The notes beneath the pieces were generated by a model. That model was not told the DNA's origin. It saw nothing but the letters and a program-made list of their open reading frames with translations, and ran no database searches. 45,168 bases of DNA from Mycoplasmatota bacterium (lineage in GTDB: Bacteria > Bacillota_I > Bacilli_A > Izemoplasmatales > Hujiaoplasmataceae), in the NCBI GenBank assembly GCA_016342455.1, contig JAEIOE010000013.1, positions 1 through 45,168 on the forward strand. The letters run 5' to 3'. This document shows, in pieces, positions 2,835 to 30,316 of the stretch. Position 1 is the stretch's first letter. Each line of letters begins with the position of its first letter. The translations under genes were made by a program, and so were the position numbers.

Positions 2835-2958
2835 AAATTGGTGATATGGTTTTTGAACAGCGATTTACGGTATTATATGCATCGAAAAGAAAGGGTGCGC
2901 AACTTTTTCTAGGGTTATGTAAAAATTACTAGGGGTGACAAGACATATAAGAAGCATT

Positions 2959-2989
2959 GGTTTGATACATAGGTATCGAGCCTTTTTTT
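2959..2989 (+). terminator. Rho-independent terminator
   Basis: GGTTTGATAC at 2959-2968 pairs over 10 positions (two G-U) with GTATCGAGCC at 2973-2982 around an ATAG loop, followed by seven T. It should end the transcript of the first ATPase and the 137-residue protein. The same hairpin with compensating changes occurs at 5049-5081. Confidence 0.8.
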
Positions 2990-3096
2990 GTGCAGATAGG
3001 GGTATTTCTCGCTATATTCCAAATTCAATGAGCCATGCAGAAGTTAAAAGTAGAACTTTGGTAGGACTTTTTTGTTTTTTACGTTCAACCTTTTAA

Positions 3097-3164
3097 AGAT
3101 TACCTAACTATTTACACGATTACCCAACCATTTACACGATTACCCAACCATTTACACGATTACG
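3097..3164. repeat. Iteron-like tandem repeat array 2 (20 bp units)
   Basis: Units at 3097, 3117 and 3137 are each 20 bases, and a partial fourth begins at 3157. The two central units are identical (CGATTACCCAACCATTTACA). The first differs at three positions. The unit is the same as in array 1, and the distance to the following promoter is about 110-115 bases in both places. Confidence 0.88.
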
Positions 3165-3323: not shown

Positions 3324-4577
3324 ATGTATAAACAAAGAATATTAGAAAAGACACTAAAAGAGTATCTAGATACATTTAAAGCTGTCGCACTAGTTGGTCC
3401 CAAATTTTGTGGAAAGACAACATTATCTGAACGATTTTCAAAATCAAGTATTTGTCTTAATCCATTAAATGTTAGTGATTATAAAACAATGTTACAACTT
3501 AACAAGGATGAATTTTTATCCTTACCTTATCCCAAGTTGATTGATGAATGGCAACTCATTCCAGAAATATGGGATGTTATCAGACACGAAGTGGATCATT
3601 TGGATGGTAGAGGCTTTTTCATATTAACCGGATCTTCTGCAGCCAATCTTGAAGAAACTGCTCACTCTGGAGCGGGAAGAATTAGCCGTTTAACGCTTAG
3701 ACCGATGAGCTTGTATGAATCTGGTGTATCATCTGGTGAAATATCTTTACAAAAACTATTTTCGAATAATAAAATAACATATAAAAAGTGTGGTGTTACT
3801 GTACAAGATTATGCGATTTGGATTATTAAAGGCGGTTGGCCAGAGGGTATGAAGGATTCTGAACAGCAATCAATTAGAAGAATGCATTCTTATATAGATG
3901 CCCTTATCAAAGAAGATATAAACAAGGTTACTACAAAAAAATATAACGAAAATAGGGCTCGAAAAATATTAGAATCTTTAGCTAGATACACAGCGTCAGA
4001 AACAACAAATAAAAAAATATTAATTGATCTCGATTCAATGGAAACATCTACAGCTGAAAATACATTAGTAGACTATTTGGATGTGCTTAATAAATTATAT
4101 ATCATTGAGGATTTGAAGGCTTGGAATCCTAACTTAAGAAGTAAAACTGTTATTAGAAGCACACCTGCTAGATTTTTTATTGATCCTTCTATAGGTTCAA
4201 GTGTTCTAAAACTAACCAGCGCTAAGTTATTAAAAGACTTTGAAACGTTCGGATTATTCTTTGAGGCCTTGGTTATTCGAGATTTAAGAATATATGCGGA
4301 AGTTTTAGATGGAGAAGTCTACCGTTATAAAGATAAAACAGGTTTAGAAATTGATGCAATCATACAGCTGCAAGATGGTAGATGGGGAGCAGTACAAGTT
4401 AAAATGGGTTCTCATATGTTTGATGATGCAGCGGATAAATTAAATAAATTTGCTGAAAAAGTCGATGCAAAGAAAATGGAAGAACCTTCCTTTTTAGCAA
4501 TCATTTCTGCAACAGAATATGCTTATCAACGTGAAGATGGCATATATATCATACCTATTGGGATGTTAAAAGACTAG
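3324..4577 (+). CDS. AAA-family ATPase with C-terminal DUF4143/PD-(D/E)XK-like domain
   Basis: The 417-residue protein has a Walker A GPKFCGKT at about 25-32, a Walker B KLIDEWQ at about 71-77 and an ILTGSS strand at about 100-105. The C-terminal region carries FFEALVIRDL, GLEIDAII and AVQVKMG at about 309-366, the complete E..D..xVK pattern of the nuclease-like fold that ends DUF4143 proteins. It differs strongly from the ATPase at 1175 and is not a recent copy, although the spacers in front of the two are clearly related. No partner gene follows within 700 bases, so it is probably a single-gene unit. Confidence 0.86.
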   Translation: MYKQRILEKTLKEYLDTFKAVALVGPKFCGKTTLSERFSKSSICLNPLNVSDYKTMLQLNKDEFLSLPYPKLIDEWQLIPEIWDVIRHEVDHLDGRGFFILTGSSAANLEETAHSGAGRISRLTLRPMSLYESGVSSGEISLQKLFSNNKITYKKCGVTVQDYAIWIIKGGWPEGMKDSEQQSIRRMHSYIDALIKEDINKVTTKKYNENRARKILESLARYTASETTNKKILIDLDSMETSTAENTLVDYLDVLNKLYIIEDLKAWNPNLRSKTVIRSTPARFFIDPSIGSSVLKLTSAKLLKDFETFGLFFEALVIRDLRIYAEVLDGEVYRYKDKTGLEIDAIIQLQDGRWGAVQVKMGSHMFDDAADKLNKFAEKVDAKKMEEPSFLAIISATEYAYQREDGIYIIPIGMLKD

Positions 4578-4925: not shown

Positions 4926-5035
4926 TGTGCTTAAAGCTGTAAGCTTTCAGTGCACAAACAATAAACTTAGCATACTCCAGAGTAAAACACGCTATTTTTT
5001 TAGTGAAAAATATGATAAACATAGTAATGACAAGA
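4926..5035. repeat. Direct repeat, right copy (about 110 bp)
   Basis: This is the second copy of the repeat at 1-110, in the same orientation. The hairpin TGTGC..AAGCT-gta-AGCTT..GCACA is at 4926-4956 and the AGAGTAAAACACGCTATTTT block follows at 4979-4998. It runs directly into GACAAGACATATAAGAA and a terminator that also occur at 2937-2989, so the full repeated cassette is longer than the 110 bp shared with the left copy. Confidence 0.8.
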
Positions 5036-5048
5036 CATATAAGAAACA

Positions 5049-5081
5049 TAGGTTTGATACACTAGTGTCAAGCCTATTTTT
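5049..5081 (+). terminator. Rho-independent terminator
   Basis: Bases 5049-5060 pair with 5065-5076 (12 positions, two G-U) around an ACTA loop, followed by TTTTT. It is a homologue of the terminator at 2959-2989, although no intact gene lies directly upstream. Confidence 0.75.
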
Positions 5082-5326
5082 AATTTAAATGACGTTGTTT
5101 TTGCCTAAACTACATGAATCGTTTGTGAATTTATGTTATAATAAAAATAATTATAAATCATGTAATATTATTTTTAATAGTCAGTCGTGACAAGTGTTTA
5201 AAATATCCGCAACAATTCAAATACGATTAGATAAATATTCGTAATAACTATTAAAAGAATATTGTTTTGCAAGATATACAAATAGTAACGAAAAATATTT
5301 TAATTATAGATCAATTGGGAGAAATC

Positions 5327-6448
5327 ATGAAAAGAAAGTATGTACGAAAGTTATTTAACACAAGAAAACCTTATGATTTAGAGAAGTCTAATGATGTTTT
5401 TTGTCAAGCAATGAGAGAAAATGCAATGCATCATTATAAACAATGTCCTGATTATAAAAGAATATTAGATGAAGCAAACTTTGATCCGAAGTCTATTGCT
5501 TGTATGGATGATTTAATAAACTTACCTTTTTTACCTACACTTTACTTTAAACATCATGAATTATTCTCTAAACCTTTATGGAAAATGCCTATTAAAGCGA
5601 CTTCCTCAGGAACGTCTTCTGGATTTAAAAGTAAGATTGCTATGAGTATTGGTGATTTATGGCGCGGATTTAAAATGATTAAAAGAATCTTTTCCTATCA
5701 CAAACTATGGTCAATTAGACCAGTTACATATTTGATTTTTGGATATCAACCAACAAAACACAGTGAAGCAGGGATTATGAAAACGGCTTATGGTTTCACT
5801 TATGTTGCACCAGCAAAAAAACGAGTCTATGCAATCAGATGGTCTAAAGAAAATGGCTATCAAGTAGATCTAGATTATATGAAAGCTGCCTTTATTAAAG
5901 CATCTCAGCAGAGAACACCAATTCGAACAATTGGATTTCCAGCATATACCTATTTCTTGTTAAAAGAAATGAAAGCAGAGGGTATTAAACTACAGATGGC
6001 AAAAGGTTCCAAAGTTACTATAGGTGGTGGCTGGAAACAGTTTTATGCAGAAAAAGTTGACAAAAATGAATTTTATCAACTAGTTCATGAAGTGTTAGGC
6101 ATAGAAGAAAAGAATTGTGTTGAATTCTTTGGCGCAGTTGAACATCCTATATTATATACAGATTGCGACTACCATCATTTTCATGTACCAGCATATGCAA
6201 GAGTTATTATTAGAGATCCGGATACCTTTAAACCAGTGCCAAAAGGGCAAATGGGACTTATTAATTTATTAACACCTATGATGGAAGGCACACCGCTATT
6301 ATCTGTTATGACAGATGATTTAGGCGTTCTTCATTATGAAGGCTGCGAATGCGGTGAATTATCTCCATGGTTAGAAATTATTGGACGAGTAGGTATCAAA
6401 GATATTACAACATGTGCACAAGGTGCAGATGATTTACTTAGTAAGTAG
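5327..6448 (+). CDS. LuxE-like acyl-protein synthetase
   Basis: The 373-residue product matches the LuxE family, which activates a fatty acid with ATP to acyl-AMP and holds the acyl group on a C-terminal cysteine for reduction by LuxC. TSSGTSSG at about 92-99 is the phosphate-binding loop of this adenylate-forming family, and PEG/LTP-type strands near YARVIIRDPDT and TDDLG follow. A single cysteine in DITTCAQGA at residue 363 falls where the acylated cysteine of the bioluminescence enzymes lies (about 364). The ATG at 5327 with GGGAGAA is preferred to a TTG at 5267. The LuxC-like gene starts 10 bases after the stop, so the two form an operon. Confidence 0.85.
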   Translation: MKRKYVRKLFNTRKPYDLEKSNDVFCQAMRENAMHHYKQCPDYKRILDEANFDPKSIACMDDLINLPFLPTLYFKHHELFSKPLWKMPIKATSSGTSSGFKSKIAMSIGDLWRGFKMIKRIFSYHKLWSIRPVTYLIFGYQPTKHSEAGIMKTAYGFTYVAPAKKRVYAIRWSKENGYQVDLDYMKAAFIKASQQRTPIRTIGFPAYTYFLLKEMKAEGIKLQMAKGSKVTIGGGWKQFYAEKVDKNEFYQLVHEVLGIEEKNCVEFFGAVEHPILYTDCDYHHFHVPAYARVIIRDPDTFKPVPKGQMGLINLLTPMMEGTPLLSVMTDDLGVLHYEGCECGELSPWLEIIGRVGIKDITTCAQGADDLLSK

Positions 6449-6457
6449 GAGGACCAA

Positions 6458-7729
6458 ATGATTTTATATCAAGGAGAAATCTTAGATAATCACTATCAGA
6501 AAGAAAAATTGGGCACACTGAGAGAAGACTGTTATAAGACGCTTCAAGTTGGCGACTCTTTAAAAGTTCAGGAAGTTATTTTAGCCTGTGATAAACTGGC
6601 TCAAAAATTCAAGAATGGTGATTTTGATGAGTTAATCATTCCACTATTAGAAGAATTCGATATTCCTTATGAATTTTTCATAAGTAATATTCCAATGTTT
6701 GAAGAAGAAGCATTAAATAGAAAAGTAGAAATAGAACTAGGCAAAGATTATCTAGACTTAGAACCACTAAACGATCAAAACAGTAGAGAAGTACATCCTC
6801 TAGGCATTTTATTTCATATAGCTGCTGGTAATGTCGATGCACTACCTGCATACTCTGTTATTGAAGGATTATTAGCTGGTAATATCAATATTTTAAAATT
6901 ACCTTCTGGAGATAGAGGTGTATCTGTTCAATTATTATCTGAACTAATCAAGATTGAACCAAAACTAAGTTCATATATTTATGTATTTGATGTGCCATCT
7001 ACTGAATTAGACACACTAAAAATATTTGCTGAAATATCAGATGCAATCATTGTTTGGGGTGGAGATGTCGCTGTTAAAGCGGCGAGATCAATGACATCTG
7101 TAACTACTAAAATTATCGAATGGGGACATAAGTTATCATTTGGATATGCAAGTCTTGATGCACCAGATGAAGAATTAGTAGGAATGGCTCACCATATGGC
7201 TATGACCAATCAAGTATTATGTTCCTCAGCACAAGGAATTTTTGTTGATACTGAATCAAGAGTTGAACTAGATAAATTTGCTGATAGATTTTTTAACATA
7301 TTCGTAGGAGTTAATAAATCACATAAACCAATTCCCTTTGTTATGAAAAGTAAAAATGCCTTAGAATTATATAACGAAAAACTAGAACAACACCTAACGC
7401 ATAAACATATTTGGCAACAAGATGGCATCAGTGTTATCACTTCAGATGATTCTAAACTAGAGTTATCTATGTTGTTTAGAAGTATCTGGATTAAAATGTT
7501 GCCAAAAAAACAAATTATAAAAGAGCTTCGTCCACATAAGAATCATTTGCAAACTGTAGGATTGATGACTTCAAAGGAAACCTACCAGGAATATGTTGAT
7601 ATATTTGTTAAGTCTGGAATCACTAGAATAACTAAAGGTGAAGATATGTCTCGAATGATTATAGGTGAAAGCCATGATGGTATTTATCCGCTTAAGTTAT
7701 ATACTAAAATAATTGAAATTGAGAAATAG
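6458..7729 (+). CDS. LuxC-like acyl-CoA/acyl-protein reductase
   Basis: The 423-residue protein belongs to the LuxC family of NADPH-dependent fatty acyl reductases, distant relatives of aldehyde dehydrogenases. HPLGILFHIAAGNVDALP at about 113-130 and LLAGNINILKLPSGD are the nucleotide-binding part, and NQVLCSSAQGIF at about 251-262 holds the catalytic cysteine (about C255). It is shorter than LuxC of luminous bacteria (about 480). With the adjacent LuxE-like protein it should make a fatty aldehyde. There is no luciferase (luxAB) or LuxD thioesterase in the window, so light production is not implied; aldehyde for lipid or alcohol synthesis is one possible use. Confidence 0.87.
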   Translation: MILYQGEILDNHYQKEKLGTLREDCYKTLQVGDSLKVQEVILACDKLAQKFKNGDFDELIIPLLEEFDIPYEFFISNIPMFEEEALNRKVEIELGKDYLDLEPLNDQNSREVHPLGILFHIAAGNVDALPAYSVIEGLLAGNINILKLPSGDRGVSVQLLSELIKIEPKLSSYIYVFDVPSTELDTLKIFAEISDAIIVWGGDVAVKAARSMTSVTTKIIEWGHKLSFGYASLDAPDEELVGMAHHMAMTNQVLCSSAQGIFVDTESRVELDKFADRFFNIFVGVNKSHKPIPFVMKSKNALELYNEKLEQHLTHKHIWQQDGISVITSDDSKLELSMLFRSIWIKMLPKKQIIKELRPHKNHLQTVGLMTSKETYQEYVDIFVKSGITRITKGEDMSRMIIGESHDGIYPLKLYTKIIEIEK

Positions 7730-8382: not shown

Positions 8383-8491
8383 TGTTAGAAAAGCGGAAAG
8401 GGAAAAGATGCAAAAACCTTAACAAGAGTGCTATAAAGTGTGCTAGTGTTGCTAAATTGTATTAAAACAGGTCATGTAACACATATAAAAC

Positions 8492-8559
8492 AAAAAGTTT
8501 CTAAAACTCCGAGATACGGTATACTAACAATACCACTCTGATGAATGAAACTTTTTTTT
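8492..8559 (+). terminator. Large structured terminator
   Basis: AAAAAGTTTC at 8492-8501 pairs with GAAACTTTTT at 8547-8556, followed by further T to 8559. The 45-base interior holds a second stem, GGTAT/ATACC at 8518-8522 and 8530-8534. The rest of the gap between 8383 and 8683 contains no supported gene. Confidence 0.65.
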
Positions 8560-8683
8560 ATTTTTATGGATAACTAATATCTACATAAAATAATCTTAGA
8601 TTTTTAGTAAGCAATAATAAAGAAGAACCTTTTATTAACAACTTTTTCATGATAGAATTATAATATCAATACTGGAGGCTATT

Positions 8684-9522: not shown

Positions 9523-9894
9523 ATGACGATAAAAGAAAGAATTAAACAAATAAAAATAAAGACTACTCAAGTATACATAGCCCTAATTTCAAAAGAAACT
9601 CCATGGCCAGCAAAAATAGTTGCTGGACTAATTATAGGATATGCATTATCTCCAATTGACTTGATTCCTGATTTTATTCCTATATTAGGATATTTAGATG
9701 ATCTAATTATTCTACCAATTCTTATATATATATGTATTCATTTGATTCCAAAATCCATTTGGGAATCTTATGAACCAAGGGCTCAAAAGATATGGGAAAA
9801 CGGTGCACCAACAAAATGGTATTTTGCAATTCCAATTATTCTGATTTGGTCGCTATTGATTACATGGATTATTGTTAAGTGGATATTGGTATAA
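9523..9894 (+). CDS. YkvA-type DUF1232 membrane protein
   Basis: The 123-residue protein has the DUF1232 core PWPAKIVAGLIIGYALSPID followed by LIPDFIPILGYLDDLIILP, the hallmark SPIDLIPDFIP..G..DD motif. Two further hydrophobic segments, at about 60-75 and 98-121, make it an integral membrane protein. The family is widespread and has no firmly established function. A weak U-tailed hairpin overlaps its stop codon. Confidence 0.85.
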   Translation: MTIKERIKQIKIKTTQVYIALISKETPWPAKIVAGLIIGYALSPIDLIPDFIPILGYLDDLIILPILIYICIHLIPKSIWESYEPRAQKIWENGAPTKWYFAIPIILIWSLLITWIIVKWILV

Positions 9895-9922
9895 AAATAG
9901 AGTAAAATGCGCTATTTTATTA
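9894..9922 (+). terminator. Short hairpin terminator overlapping the stop codon
   Basis: AAAATAG at 9894-9900 pairs with CTATTTT at 9912-9918, followed by ATTAT. The loop and right arm carry the AGAGTAAAA..CGCTATTTT block that is also in the ~110 bp direct repeats. Confidence 0.5.
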
Positions 9923-9972
9923 TGAAAACATGTTAAAATTAGTTATAATTTAACAATAGGTAGGTTGATAAA

Positions 9973-10521
9973 ATGGCGAGTTATGATAAACATTATAAGG
10001 ACAAGAACTATTTCGGTAATTCTTATCAAGAACTAATATCTTTTTTTAGAGATTATCCTAACAAAGGTAAAGTGTTAGATTTGGGATGTGGACAAGGAAG
10101 AGATACTATAGAGATAGCTAAGCTAGGATATGAGGTAATGGGAGTAGATTTATCAATTGTTGGTATTAAACAAATGCTAGAAGAAGCACAAAAACTTTCA
10201 CTTAATGTAAATGCAGAAGTTAGTGACGTATATACCTATGAAAGAATACATGAGTACGACATTATTCTACTTGATTCTATGCTTCATTTCTATTCAAAAG
10301 ATAAAGTCAAGGAAACCAATTTATATATTAAAATACTTCAAGAAATGAAAGCTGGCAGTTTGTTTTGTAATTTATTATTAAAATCAAAGAAGAATGAGGA
10401 ATACATTAAATCTTTAGTAGCTAAGAACGAACATACATTTACAGTCATTCATGATGGTTATGCAAAATATGTTGAGGCAGACTGTGAATACCATATGTAT
10501 ATTATAGAAAAGATAAAATAG
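9973..10521 (+). CDS. Class I SAM-dependent methyltransferase (TehB-like)
   Basis: The 182-residue protein has motif I VLDLGCGQGRDT near residue 35, motif II GYEVMGVDLS, and a motif IV-like DIILLDSMLHFY near residue 93, the usual order of a small class I Rossmann methyltransferase. It is close in style to TehB and methyltransferase domain 25 proteins, but the substrate cannot be deduced. It has no membrane segment. The pepC gene begins 26 bases downstream with its own strong ribosome-binding site, so the two may be co-transcribed. Confidence 0.85.
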   Translation: MASYDKHYKDKNYFGNSYQELISFFRDYPNKGKVLDLGCGQGRDTIEIAKLGYEVMGVDLSIVGIKQMLEEAQKLSLNVNAEVSDVYTYERIHEYDIILLDSMLHFYSKDKVKETNLYIKILQEMKAGSLFCNLLLKSKKNEEYIKSLVAKNEHTFTVIHDGYAKYVEADCEYHMYIIEKIK

Positions 10522-16331: not shown

Positions 16332-17204
16332 ATGGATGCGTTTGACAATATTTATGAAGAAAAAATGGGTAAAGGAAAAAGTTTGGATTACGGGAATCAA
16401 AGCTTATTAGATGAGAAGAGAGAAGAAATTTATAAATTCTTAACTTCAACGTTAACACTTATCGTCGTTATTGGACTATGGATAAGTTTTATTTATGGTA
16501 TCTTCAGTTCAATTAGTTCATTTGGAGCAGAAGGTGGAAATGCTTTTTCTGAAGTATTTACGCTGTTATTAAATATCTTTTTAGGAGTAATTGTTCCTAT
16601 AGGGTTTTACAAACTTTATAATGGTTCTAAAAAGAAGGATGTTGAACAAGTTACCTCAGGCTTTGATTGGTTAGTTATGAATTTTAAAATAATGAAAGTA
16701 GTTTTAATTATTGTTTCTGTATTTGTTGGTATTATGGCATTGATAGGAATGTTTATGTCGCCTGCAATCCTGTTATTTATGGTTGTACCAGCTTTGATCT
16801 TCGCCTTAGCTTTTTATATTATAGCTATCTTTAAGGACTTCTTTTCACAAATGAATGTATCTTTTAATAGTGGATACGATACAGTAACAAGTGCTAAAAA
16901 GGTTTTCAACTATTTGGTTGTTATCTTTGTTATTACCATTTTAGGATCTTTAATATTTTTATTACTGTTCCAAAATATAGAAACGTTGATTCCAGCTGGC
17001 TTTGAAGATCAATTCGGACCAATCCTAGCTAATTTAGATACAATAAGATTTACTTTTTACATTTCATTAGCTATTAGTCTTTTAAGCCAAGCTTACTTAA
17101 TTTATTATGTAAGTCAATTTGAAAAAACATTTACTACATTTAATATGTACTACAGAAAAAAAATTGAAGAAGTGAAAAGAAATAAAGAAAATCAAACTGA
17201 ATAA
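16332..17204 (+). CDS. Six-helix membrane protein, tandem paralogue A
   Basis: The 290-residue protein starts with a conserved polar segment (MDAFDNIYEEKMGKGKS) followed by six predicted membrane helices at about 41-65, 74-95, 117-138, 140-162, 190-215 and 237-260, and ends in a Lys/Glu-rich tail. I do not recognise a characterised family; there are no catalytic motifs, so a structural or stress-related envelope role is possible but unproven. GGGGGAG lies 8 bases before the ATG. The next gene encodes a protein of exactly the same length with a nearly identical C-terminal third. The gene has its own promoter and terminator. Confidence 0.8.
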   Translation: MDAFDNIYEEKMGKGKSLDYGNQSLLDEKREEIYKFLTSTLTLIVVIGLWISFIYGIFSSISSFGAEGGNAFSEVFTLLLNIFLGVIVPIGFYKLYNGSKKKDVEQVTSGFDWLVMNFKIMKVVLIIVSVFVGIMALIGMFMSPAILLFMVVPALIFALAFYIIAIFKDFFSQMNVSFNSGYDTVTSAKKVFNYLVVIFVITILGSLIFLLLFQNIETLIPAGFEDQFGPILANLDTIRFTFYISLAISLLSQAYLIYYVSQFEKTFTTFNMYYRKKIEEVKRNKENQTE

Positions 17205-17396: not shown

Positions 17397-18269
17397 ATGG
17401 ATGCGTTTGAAGATATTTATGAAGAAAAAATGGGCAAAGGAAAAAGCTTTGATTCGACTAATCAAAACTTAGTTGATGAGAAGAGAGAAGAAATATATAA
17501 ATTCTTTACCTCAACATTAACAGGAATTGTCGTTTTTGGACTCTGGATAGGTTTTATTTTTAGTATCTTTAGTTCAATTAGCGCAATTGGAATCGAAGAT
17601 GAAAATATATTTTCAGAAATATTTAGTCTTTTAGTGAGTATCGTTTTGGGAATATTCGTTCCGCTAGGATTTTATAGACTTTATACGGGGTCAAAAAAGA
17701 AAGATTTTCTTCAAGTGGACTCTGGATTTAATACGATAATTACTTATTTTAAAATATTAAAAGTATTACTAATTGTTTCGGCTATTTTCGTTGGGTTTAT
17801 GATTTTACTAGGATTAATAATAGCTCCTACAATTCTATTGTTTGGTTTAATAGCAGCCGGATTTTATGCGCTAGCTTTCTACATAATTGGTATTTTCAAA
17901 AGCTTTTTTGTACAAACATCTACTTCTTTTAAAAGTGCGTATGATACAGTACCAAGTGCTAAAAAGATTTTCAACTATTTGGTTGTTATCTTTGTTATTG
18001 CCATTTTAGGATCTTTAATATTTTTATTAGTGTTCCAAAATATAGAAACGTTGATTCCATCTGAATTTGAAGATCAATTTGGTCCATTACTTGCTGGTTT
18101 TACTACAATAAGATTTACTTTCTATATTTCATTAGCTATTAGTCTACTAAGCCAAGCTTACTTAATTTATTATGTAAGTCAATTTGAAAAAACTTTTACT
18201 ACATTTAATGTTTACTACAGAAAAAAAGTTGAAGATGAAAAAAGATCAAGATTTAATCAACCAGAATAG
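17397..18269 (+). CDS. Six-helix membrane protein, tandem paralogue B
   Basis: The 290-residue product shares the polar N-terminus and all six membrane helices with the gene at 16332. Divergence is concentrated at about residues 55-185, whereas the last 100 residues differ at only a handful of places. The nucleotide sequence is also nearly identical there (16895-17160 against 17960-18225), suggesting recent gene conversion rather than uniform divergence. Function is unknown. GGGAG precedes the ATG, and a terminator homologous to that of paralogue A follows. Confidence 0.8.
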   Translation: MDAFEDIYEEKMGKGKSFDSTNQNLVDEKREEIYKFFTSTLTGIVVFGLWIGFIFSIFSSISAIGIEDENIFSEIFSLLVSIVLGIFVPLGFYRLYTGSKKKDFLQVDSGFNTIITYFKILKVLLIVSAIFVGFMILLGLIIAPTILLFGLIAAGFYALAFYIIGIFKSFFVQTSTSFKSAYDTVPSAKKIFNYLVVIFVIAILGSLIFLLVFQNIETLIPSEFEDQFGPLLAGFTTIRFTFYISLAISLLSQAYLIYYVSQFEKTFTTFNVYYRKKVEDEKRSRFNQPE

Positions 18270-18396: not shown

Positions 18397-19698
18397 ATGG
18401 AAAACAAGGCTTTAAAATGGTACAAACTTGATAACAGTGCGAAAATCTATCCGATTTTAATCTCGGATAGATATACTTATGTATTTAGACTTTCAGCTAT
18501 TTTAACAGAAGTAGTTGATCCTGAAATACTGTATCAAGCAATAACTGAATCTAGGAATCGTTTTCCATCTTTTTTTGTGACACTAAAAAGAGGGTTTTTC
18601 TGGTATTACTTTGAAGAAAACCTACAAGATCCAGTTTTAGAGAAAGAAACAAACTATGCTTGTGAAAAAATACACGAGCATAGAAACAGAAAATATCAGT
18701 TTCGATTCTTGTATTACAATAAAAGAATCTCTTTAGAGATAAACCACGTGTTAACAGATGGCGGAGGTGCATTAGTCTTTTTAAACGCTATTATTTACAG
18801 GTATTTAGAGCTTATTGGAAAAGATGTGTTCCCAGATGAATCTGTTATTTTACTAGATTCAGAAATTGACCCTGCAGAACAAGAGGATAGTTTTATCAAA
18901 AACTATAGTGGAGGTCCACTTAATCCACCGAAACTACCGAAGGCTTATTTTAATAAAAGAAAACTATTTAAGAAATTCGGTAGTGGAGTAATCAATTCCT
19001 TTATTGATTCAGCTGAACTGAAAGCACTAGCTTACAAGTCCTCTGCTAGTATTACGCAATATATCGTTGCTTTGTTAACTTATGCAACAATTAAAACCGG
19101 AAATAAGAAATTACTGGATAAATATCCTGTGAACGTTTGTGTGCCAGTAAATTTAAGGGGTAAATACGGATCTAAAACTTTAAGCAATTTTTCTCTTTTC
19201 TTTCATACTAGTTATAAGTCTTTACCAAATCTCGACTTTGAATCTATCTTAACGAAAGTAAAACAAGACTTTAAAGAAGAGTATAGCGAAGAAAAAATCC
19301 AAAGCAAATTAGATACAGTTTGTGTAGTGCAAGAAAAAATGCTATTTAAGTTAATTCCTTTGTTTGTTAAGTATTTTTTCTTGAAGATTGGTTATAACAC
19401 GTTTGGAAGAAGACCAACTTCCATAACTATTTCTAATTTTGGCTTGATCAAAACACCAAAAGCCATGGAACCATTTATTGAATCTTTTTCGTTTTACATG
19501 GGTTCAGCCGTGAAAACAGCAGTAGCTGTCAATTCTTATAAAGGAAAAACATCAATCGTTTTCTCAAGAGCTTGTGTGAATACCAACTTAGAAGAAGCCT
19601 TTTTCAGTTTCTTAACGGAACAGGGCTTACAAGTAGAAATCGTTTCAAATTTTTGGGAGTTACATGAAAAAAAATATAAAAAACTAAGAAAAGGATAA
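18397..19698 (+). CDS. HxxxDG-type acyltransferase (condensation/alcohol acetyltransferase superfamily)
   Basis: The 433-residue protein carries NHVLTDGGG near residue 116, the HxxxDG catalytic motif of the CoA-dependent acyltransferase superfamily that includes wax-ester synthases, Pap-type enzymes and NRPS condensation domains. A second family feature, the region around YPVNVCVPVNLRGKYG, lies in the C-terminal half. It resembles single-domain alcohol or sugar acetyltransferase-like proteins of Firmicutes more than true condensation domains, but the acyl donor and acceptor cannot be read. The start ATG is 17 bases after a TATAAT at 18375-18380. A terminator overlaps the stop codon. Confidence 0.75.
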   Translation: MENKALKWYKLDNSAKIYPILISDRYTYVFRLSAILTEVVDPEILYQAITESRNRFPSFFVTLKRGFFWYYFEENLQDPVLEKETNYACEKIHEHRNRKYQFRFLYYNKRISLEINHVLTDGGGALVFLNAIIYRYLELIGKDVFPDESVILLDSEIDPAEQEDSFIKNYSGGPLNPPKLPKAYFNKRKLFKKFGSGVINSFIDSAELKALAYKSSASITQYIVALLTYATIKTGNKKLLDKYPVNVCVPVNLRGKYGSKTLSNFSLFFHTSYKSLPNLDFESILTKVKQDFKEEYSEEKIQSKLDTVCVVQEKMLFKLIPLFVKYFFLKIGYNTFGRRPTSITISNFGLIKTPKAMEPFIESFSFYMGSAVKTAVAVNSYKGKTSIVFSRACVNTNLEEAFFSFLTEQGLQVEIVSNFWELHEKKYKKLRKG

Positions 19699-30104: not shown

Positions 30105-30316
30105 AGATAAAAAAACAATGATAGGACCAATGAATATGTAACTTATCTTAGAGAGTCAGTGTTGGTGAAAACTGATATAAGAGCTATTCTATCTACCCTA
30201 GAGTGAGATTAATAACCTCCGTATTCCTGCGTTAAAGGAATAAGTGCTAGTTTTACTAGAACTAAGGTGGTACCACGATAATTCGTCCTTTACTTAATTG
30301 TAAAGGACTTTTCTTT
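30105..30316 (+). promoter_or_regulatory. T-box leader (serine) controlling serS
   Basis: The leader has the AGAGAGTCAGTG...GGTGAAAACTGA Stem I features, and the T-box AAGGTGGTACCACG at 30264-30277. A terminator stem follows, GTCCTTTAC at 30285-30293 with GTAAAGGAC at 30300-30308 and a U-tail to 30316. By position relative to CCCTAGAG the specifier codon is TCT at 30188-30190, a serine codon, in agreement with the gene downstream. Uncharged tRNA-Ser should favour the antiterminator and raise serS, and perhaps alr, expression. Confidence 0.93.

Follow-up and report, generated by a model that had tools for sequence, protein, structure and literature searches.

The luxE–luxC pair and its surroundings

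The window studied here, the whole analysed stretch of 45,168 nucleotides from a Mycoplasmatota bacterium, carries a luxE homologue followed by a luxC homologue. The features of the pair are as follows.

5048..5077, + strand: terminator-like hairpin upstream of the pair, between it and the preceding gene (terminator prediction)
5327..6448, + strand: luxE homologue, acyl-protein synthetase, 373 amino acids (Pfam, phmmer, AlphaFold2 model)
5600..5614, + strand: TSSGT adenylation (ATP/AMP) motif, LuxE residues 92–96 (conservation in homologues)
6413..6415, + strand: TGT codon of LuxE Cys363, predicted acyl-transfer cysteine in the C-terminal tail (alignment)
6448..6452, + strand: GGAGG, luxC ribosome-binding site, overlapping the luxE stop codon (sequence)
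6458..7729, + strand: luxC homologue, acyl reductase with an aldehyde-dehydrogenase fold, 423 amino acids (Pfam, structural match)
7220..7222, + strand: TGT codon of LuxC Cys255, predicted acyl-accepting cysteine (alignment)

Both open reading frames are intact and adjacent, and they form a tight two-gene operon. The luxE start is most likely the ATG at 5327, which is preceded by a Shine–Dalgarno-like GGGAG, and not the TTG at 5267 where the program-called ORF opens; luxE stops at 6448 and luxC starts at the ATG at 6458, after a gap of 9 bp. Because the luxC ribosome-binding site overlaps the luxE stop codon, translation of the two genes is probably coupled. Two terminator-like sites were found in the region, compared with 1.1 expected by chance. 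A conserved regulator site upstream of luxE was considered and rejected, as no shared motif and no FabT- or FapR-like site was found.

The accessory region that precedes the pair contains two AAA_14/DUF4143 ATPase genes (1130–2377 and 3324–4577). Single accessory genes are separated by recurring intergenic elements of about 50–200 bp, made of hairpins and a terminator-like stem, of which copies lie at 1–125, 845–1016, 2936–3154, 4926–5081 and 9886–10011; the contig of the window starts within one of them. This element has 16 matches in the assembly, mostly partial, with clusters on contigs C47, C41 and C96. A second hairpin element, AAAGTTTC...GAAACTTT around CTCCGAGATACGGTATACTAA, is found after the lipoprotein gene that follows the pair (8490–8560) and directly upstream of luxE at another locus (L032:5558–5605). 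Farther along the window, two similar membrane proteins of 290 amino acids each are encoded in tandem (16332–17204 and 17397–18269), apparently as the result of a duplication, and a T-box leader (30109–30293) lies upstream of a GTG-started gene that resembles seryl-tRNA synthetase.

Family membership, predicted catalytic residues and predicted reaction

The preliminary description of this DNA recognized an acyl-protein synthetase of the LuxE type with a cysteine at residue 363 and a LuxC reductase with a putative catalytic Cys255, and both assignments were borne out with the residue numbers exact. LuxE matches Pfam family PF04443 with 151.6 bits (3.7e-44; curated cut-off 24.9) and LuxC matches PF05893 with 192.9 bits (1.1e-56; cut-off 21). 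Neither protein reaches the NCBIfam equivalogs of luminous bacteria (102.4 versus 550 bits for NF052244 and 69.5 versus 750 bits for NF052251). The LuxC–LuxE complex of Photobacterium phosphoreum (PDB 7xc6) is the top PDB sequence match of LuxE (phmmer, 2.4e-21) and the sole one of LuxC, with identities of 26% for LuxE and 23% for LuxC. Cys363 is invariant in 55/55 aligned LuxE homologues and Cys255 in 56/56 aligned LuxC homologues, and both are present in 7xc6; the P. phosphoreum counterparts are Cys364 of LuxE and Cys286 of LuxC, the latter in YDQQACFSTQ (PMC8301110). LuxE residues S93, S94, G95 and T96 are likewise invariant in the 55 homologues and common to 7xc6. The window and luminous pairs thus belong to the same two families, with both acyl-carrier cysteines and the same motifs (TSSGT, GGGWK and TDD in LuxE; GN, WGG and HDG in LuxC). 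They differ in that the window pair is a two-gene unit in the order luxE–luxC, without luxD, luxA or luxB.

AlphaFold2 models built from alignments of the homologous loci gave pLDDT values of 84.9 for LuxE and 90.7 for LuxC. The top fold match of the LuxC model is 7xc6 LuxC (E 1.6e-22), with aldehyde dehydrogenases next, while the top fold matches of the LuxE model are PaaK-type adenylating enzymes. Residues 356–373 of LuxE, the tail that carries Cys363, have a pLDDT below 50, which fits the idea that this tail is probably a flexible swinging arm without proving it. The window's LuxE shares the adenylating fold with the PaaK-type ligases BT_0428 (4r1l), PaaK1 (2y4n) and ClxA (9s3l); these are full-length proteins of about 400–440 amino acids, whereas LuxE falls short of this length and has the acyl-cysteine tail at its end. 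Within this LuxE family C280, H283, H286, C340 and C342 are invariant, and the CxCG motif of C340 and C342 is also present in ClxA and BT_0428. In 7xc6 LuxE C280, H283, C340 and C342 are absent and H286 is common to both. Together these cysteines and histidines may form a metal site that goes back to PaaK-type ancestors.

Since both acyl-carrier cysteines are present, the genes are coupled and the folds are the right ones, reduction of an acid to an aldehyde is the natural reading of the pair. By analogy with the luminous system (PMC8301110), the two proteins would form a complex in which LuxE uses ATP to adenylate a free carboxylic acid, giving acyl-AMP, and then moves the acyl group from AMP to its own C-terminal Cys363, on the probably flexible tail. 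The tail would hand this group on to LuxC, at Cys255, and LuxC would reduce the resulting thioester with NAD(P)H to the aldehyde. This predicted route, from the acid through acyl-AMP, acyl-LuxE and acyl-LuxC to the aldehyde, has good support in the residues, the folds and the pairing of the genes.

The preliminary description went further and specified fatty acids as substrates. Here the acid-to-aldehyde chemistry stands on the residues, the folds and the gene coupling, and the chain length comes from the analogy with the luminous complex. The most likely substrate is a fatty acid of medium or long chain, since the characterized LuxE/LuxC complex works on fatty acids, but with identities this low the substrate range of the luminous enzymes is not transferable. 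It is possible, although we consider it rather unlikely, that the same chemistry is applied to a short, branched, hydroxy or aromatic acid and yields an aldehyde or alcohol building block instead of a fatty aldehyde. The PaaK-type ligases nearest to the LuxE fold act on aromatic and small acids, but every ANL enzyme appears PaaK-like at such a distance. Clusters of RiPP-like or PaaK/GNAT/transporter type surround some relatives of the pair, in Streptomyces, on a Salmonella plasmid and in a single Lachnospiraceae genome; where they could be placed, however, these relatives fall in other branches. Vibrio cholerae RfbN, a protein with a LuxE domain, has been connected with a pathway to 3-deoxy-L-glycero-tetronic acid (cited in PMC4772473), an example of LuxE/LuxC-like proteins associated with small or sugar-like products. 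Against this reading, 7xc6, the one close complex with a solved structure, reduces fatty acids.

Distribution and probable transfer of the pair

A scan of 84,980 genomes yielded 56 homologous loci, in 54 of which luxE directly precedes luxC (55/57 with the window), the two genes usually overlapping by 4 bases or standing a short gap apart; in the two exceptions, L028 and L051, automatic ORF calling gave no adjacent pair. In an even phylum sample of 392 genomes, 13 carriers were found, the window's genome included, and the pair is adjacent in all 12 others. A LuxC of the same kind is present in about 6% of 200 sampled genomes of a Lachnospiraceae family, where luxE was found beside luxC at 9 of the 10 loci read, ORF calling having missed luxE at the remaining one (L107). 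This strict pairing fits an obligate two-component enzyme. It also bears on the idea that the pair works in reverse, LuxC oxidizing fatty aldehydes scavenged from the host or the community to acyl-LuxE and acyl-AMP, which we regard as highly improbable. The aldehyde dehydrogenase fold of LuxC and the gut or rumen origin of many carriers agree with such a role, but simple aldehyde dehydrogenases manage oxidation without a LuxE partner, the strict pairing speaks for ATP-driven reduction, and relatives are also found in sediment-type bacteria and on a cold-seep Chloroflexota plasmid.

Occurrence of the pair is patchy (about 3–6% of sampled genomes), and its carriers are in the minority and scattered among Firmicutes of gut and sediment, many of them from gut or rumen. 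Comparison of the homologous loci revealed no third gene recurring beside the pair across lineages; the neighbours vary by locus and include a serpin, GreA, an M18 peptidase, a chitinase-like protein, a HAD phosphatase and a helicase. The lipoprotein encoded downstream of the pair in the window, for which a connection had been suggested, has no homologue beside the pair at any other locus and resembles another lipoprotein of the same genome (27% identity, E 1e-10); we therefore rejected it as a third component of the module.

Among 101 relatives, with the window's genome counted in, a true pair, whole or in part, was found in only nine, and the four further genomes sampled from the window's genus all lack it. 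In a concatenated tree, the window and Izimaplasma-like Bacilli form a clade of six rows with 100% SH-aLRT support, and an Anaeroplasma pair lies inside a Lachnospiraceae clade (97%), a nesting that probably reflects a cross-class transfer. Because of long branches, the exact position of the luminous proteins in the tree is unreliable. A pair on a Chloroflexota plasmid (CP069395, 40% identity) is likewise a luxE–luxC unit, with a 4-base overlap and unrelated neighbours, but it belongs to another phylum and falls outside the Bacillota clade of 55 rows.

More distant pairs occur in other contexts on Streptomyces, Salmonella and Pantoea plasmids. A related cluster is present in a Lachnospiraceae genome (L112:2434–10473), on a Salmonella plasmid (L081:4662–9539) and on a Streptomyces plasmid (L115:809–8250); it encodes LuxE, a PaaK-like ligase and a long LuxC, which in L112 and L081 carries a fused AMP-binding domain. 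L112 and L115 also have genes for a GNAT protein and a transporter, and the whole looks like a biosynthetic cluster. A luxE–luxC pair is also present in an unverified 'Bacteriophage sp.' record from human faeces (L083, MT835565.1). A phage origin of the pair was rejected, as this is the single such record and none was found in viral contigs; L083 is probably a bacterial contig.

Probable fate of the aldehyde

The window's assembly, a 2.43 Mb draft estimated to be 97.8% complete, was searched family by family for enzymes that might use the aldehyde. The preliminary description had pictured a non-luminous low-GC anaerobe without luxAB alongside the pair, and this picture held: luxAB and luxD were not seen in the window, the luciferase family PF00296 has no match in the assembly or in eight other pair-bearing genomes, and an anaerobic way of life fits the FeFe-hydrogenase genes and the relatives in Izimaplasma, Mycoplasmatota and Bacilli.

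The use it had envisaged for the aldehydes, in alkyl or plasmalogen-type lipids, found no such backing. The assembly has no match to PF09989, the marker of the anaerobic plasmalogen enzyme PlsA, and the pair and PF09989 are independent of each other among the 101 relatives (4/9 versus 43/92, Fisher p = 1.0), so that a PlsA-type link was rejected; PF09989 is present in 28 of 50 other carriers, these 28 being mostly Clostridia. The route through an alkyl-DHAP synthase was rejected as well, since the AGPS-type FAD enzyme PF02913, the alkylglycerol synthase whose presence was to be checked, is missing from the assembly. A few carriers have PF02913 matches, and these are of about 470 amino acids, the size of GlcD-type oxidases. 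A candidate acyltransferase in the window (18397–19698), with an HxxxDG motif and no Pfam or PDB family, was discarded as a pair-linked wax or alcohol acyltransferase because nearly every genome of the family has it, pair or no pair.

These results also make it improbable that the aldehyde feeds a PlsA-independent pathway to ether or vinyl-ether lipids, a further objection being that no lipid-synthesis gene was recognized beside the pair at any Bacillota locus examined. Anaeroplasma contains plasmalogens, and an Anaeroplasma MAG has the pair with no PF09989 match, but this is the pair that looks acquired from its place inside the Lachnospiraceae clade. Bacterial plasmalogens were reported to be built from long-chain aldehydes, not alcohols, according to the account of Goldfine and Hagen (1972) given in PMC9702350. 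More doubtful still is a broader proposal, in which the pair is a horizontally spread, self-contained aldehyde module that provides PlsA-less anaerobic Firmicutes with a separate route to ether, vinyl-ether or alcohol lipids, and in which stand-alone pairs are ancestral to the luminous operons.

LuxE and LuxC genes of non-luminous bacteria are also found in flagellar glycosylation islands of Aeromonas (PMC7874193) and Enterobacteriaceae (PMC4875605), where they are accompanied by genes for ACP, ketoacyl-ACP reductase, an AMP ligase and a glycosyltransferase; the window pair lacks these partner genes. No aldehyde-using partner is encoded beside it, and for this reason the aldehyde probably goes to general dehydrogenases, which would convert it to the alcohol or back to the acid. 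All 13 pair-bearing genomes that were checked encode iron-dependent alcohol dehydrogenases, but as these enzymes are nearly ubiquitous anyway, their presence, which the preliminary description had proposed to look for, is uninformative.

In conclusion, the pair is a stand-alone LuxE–LuxC reductase belonging to an already known kind. The explanation we favour, with somewhat better than even confidence, is that it acts as a free-standing two-protein carboxylic-acid reductase, probably for fatty acids, whose aldehyde is handled by general dehydrogenases. Its role would be a low-flux biosynthetic step or an adjustment of the acyl pool rather than bulk electron disposal, in which one ATP would be spent to AMP for each acid. 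To our knowledge, LuxE and LuxC are known almost solely from bioluminescence. Here they occur as a scattered pair, nearly always joined and lacking a constant third gene, which suggests that the reductase is of use on its own; the pair also offers a testable enzyme set for the roles that aldehydes play in anaerobes that do not glow. Should the substrate prove to be a fatty acid, the pair would add a new gut source of fatty aldehydes or alcohols.
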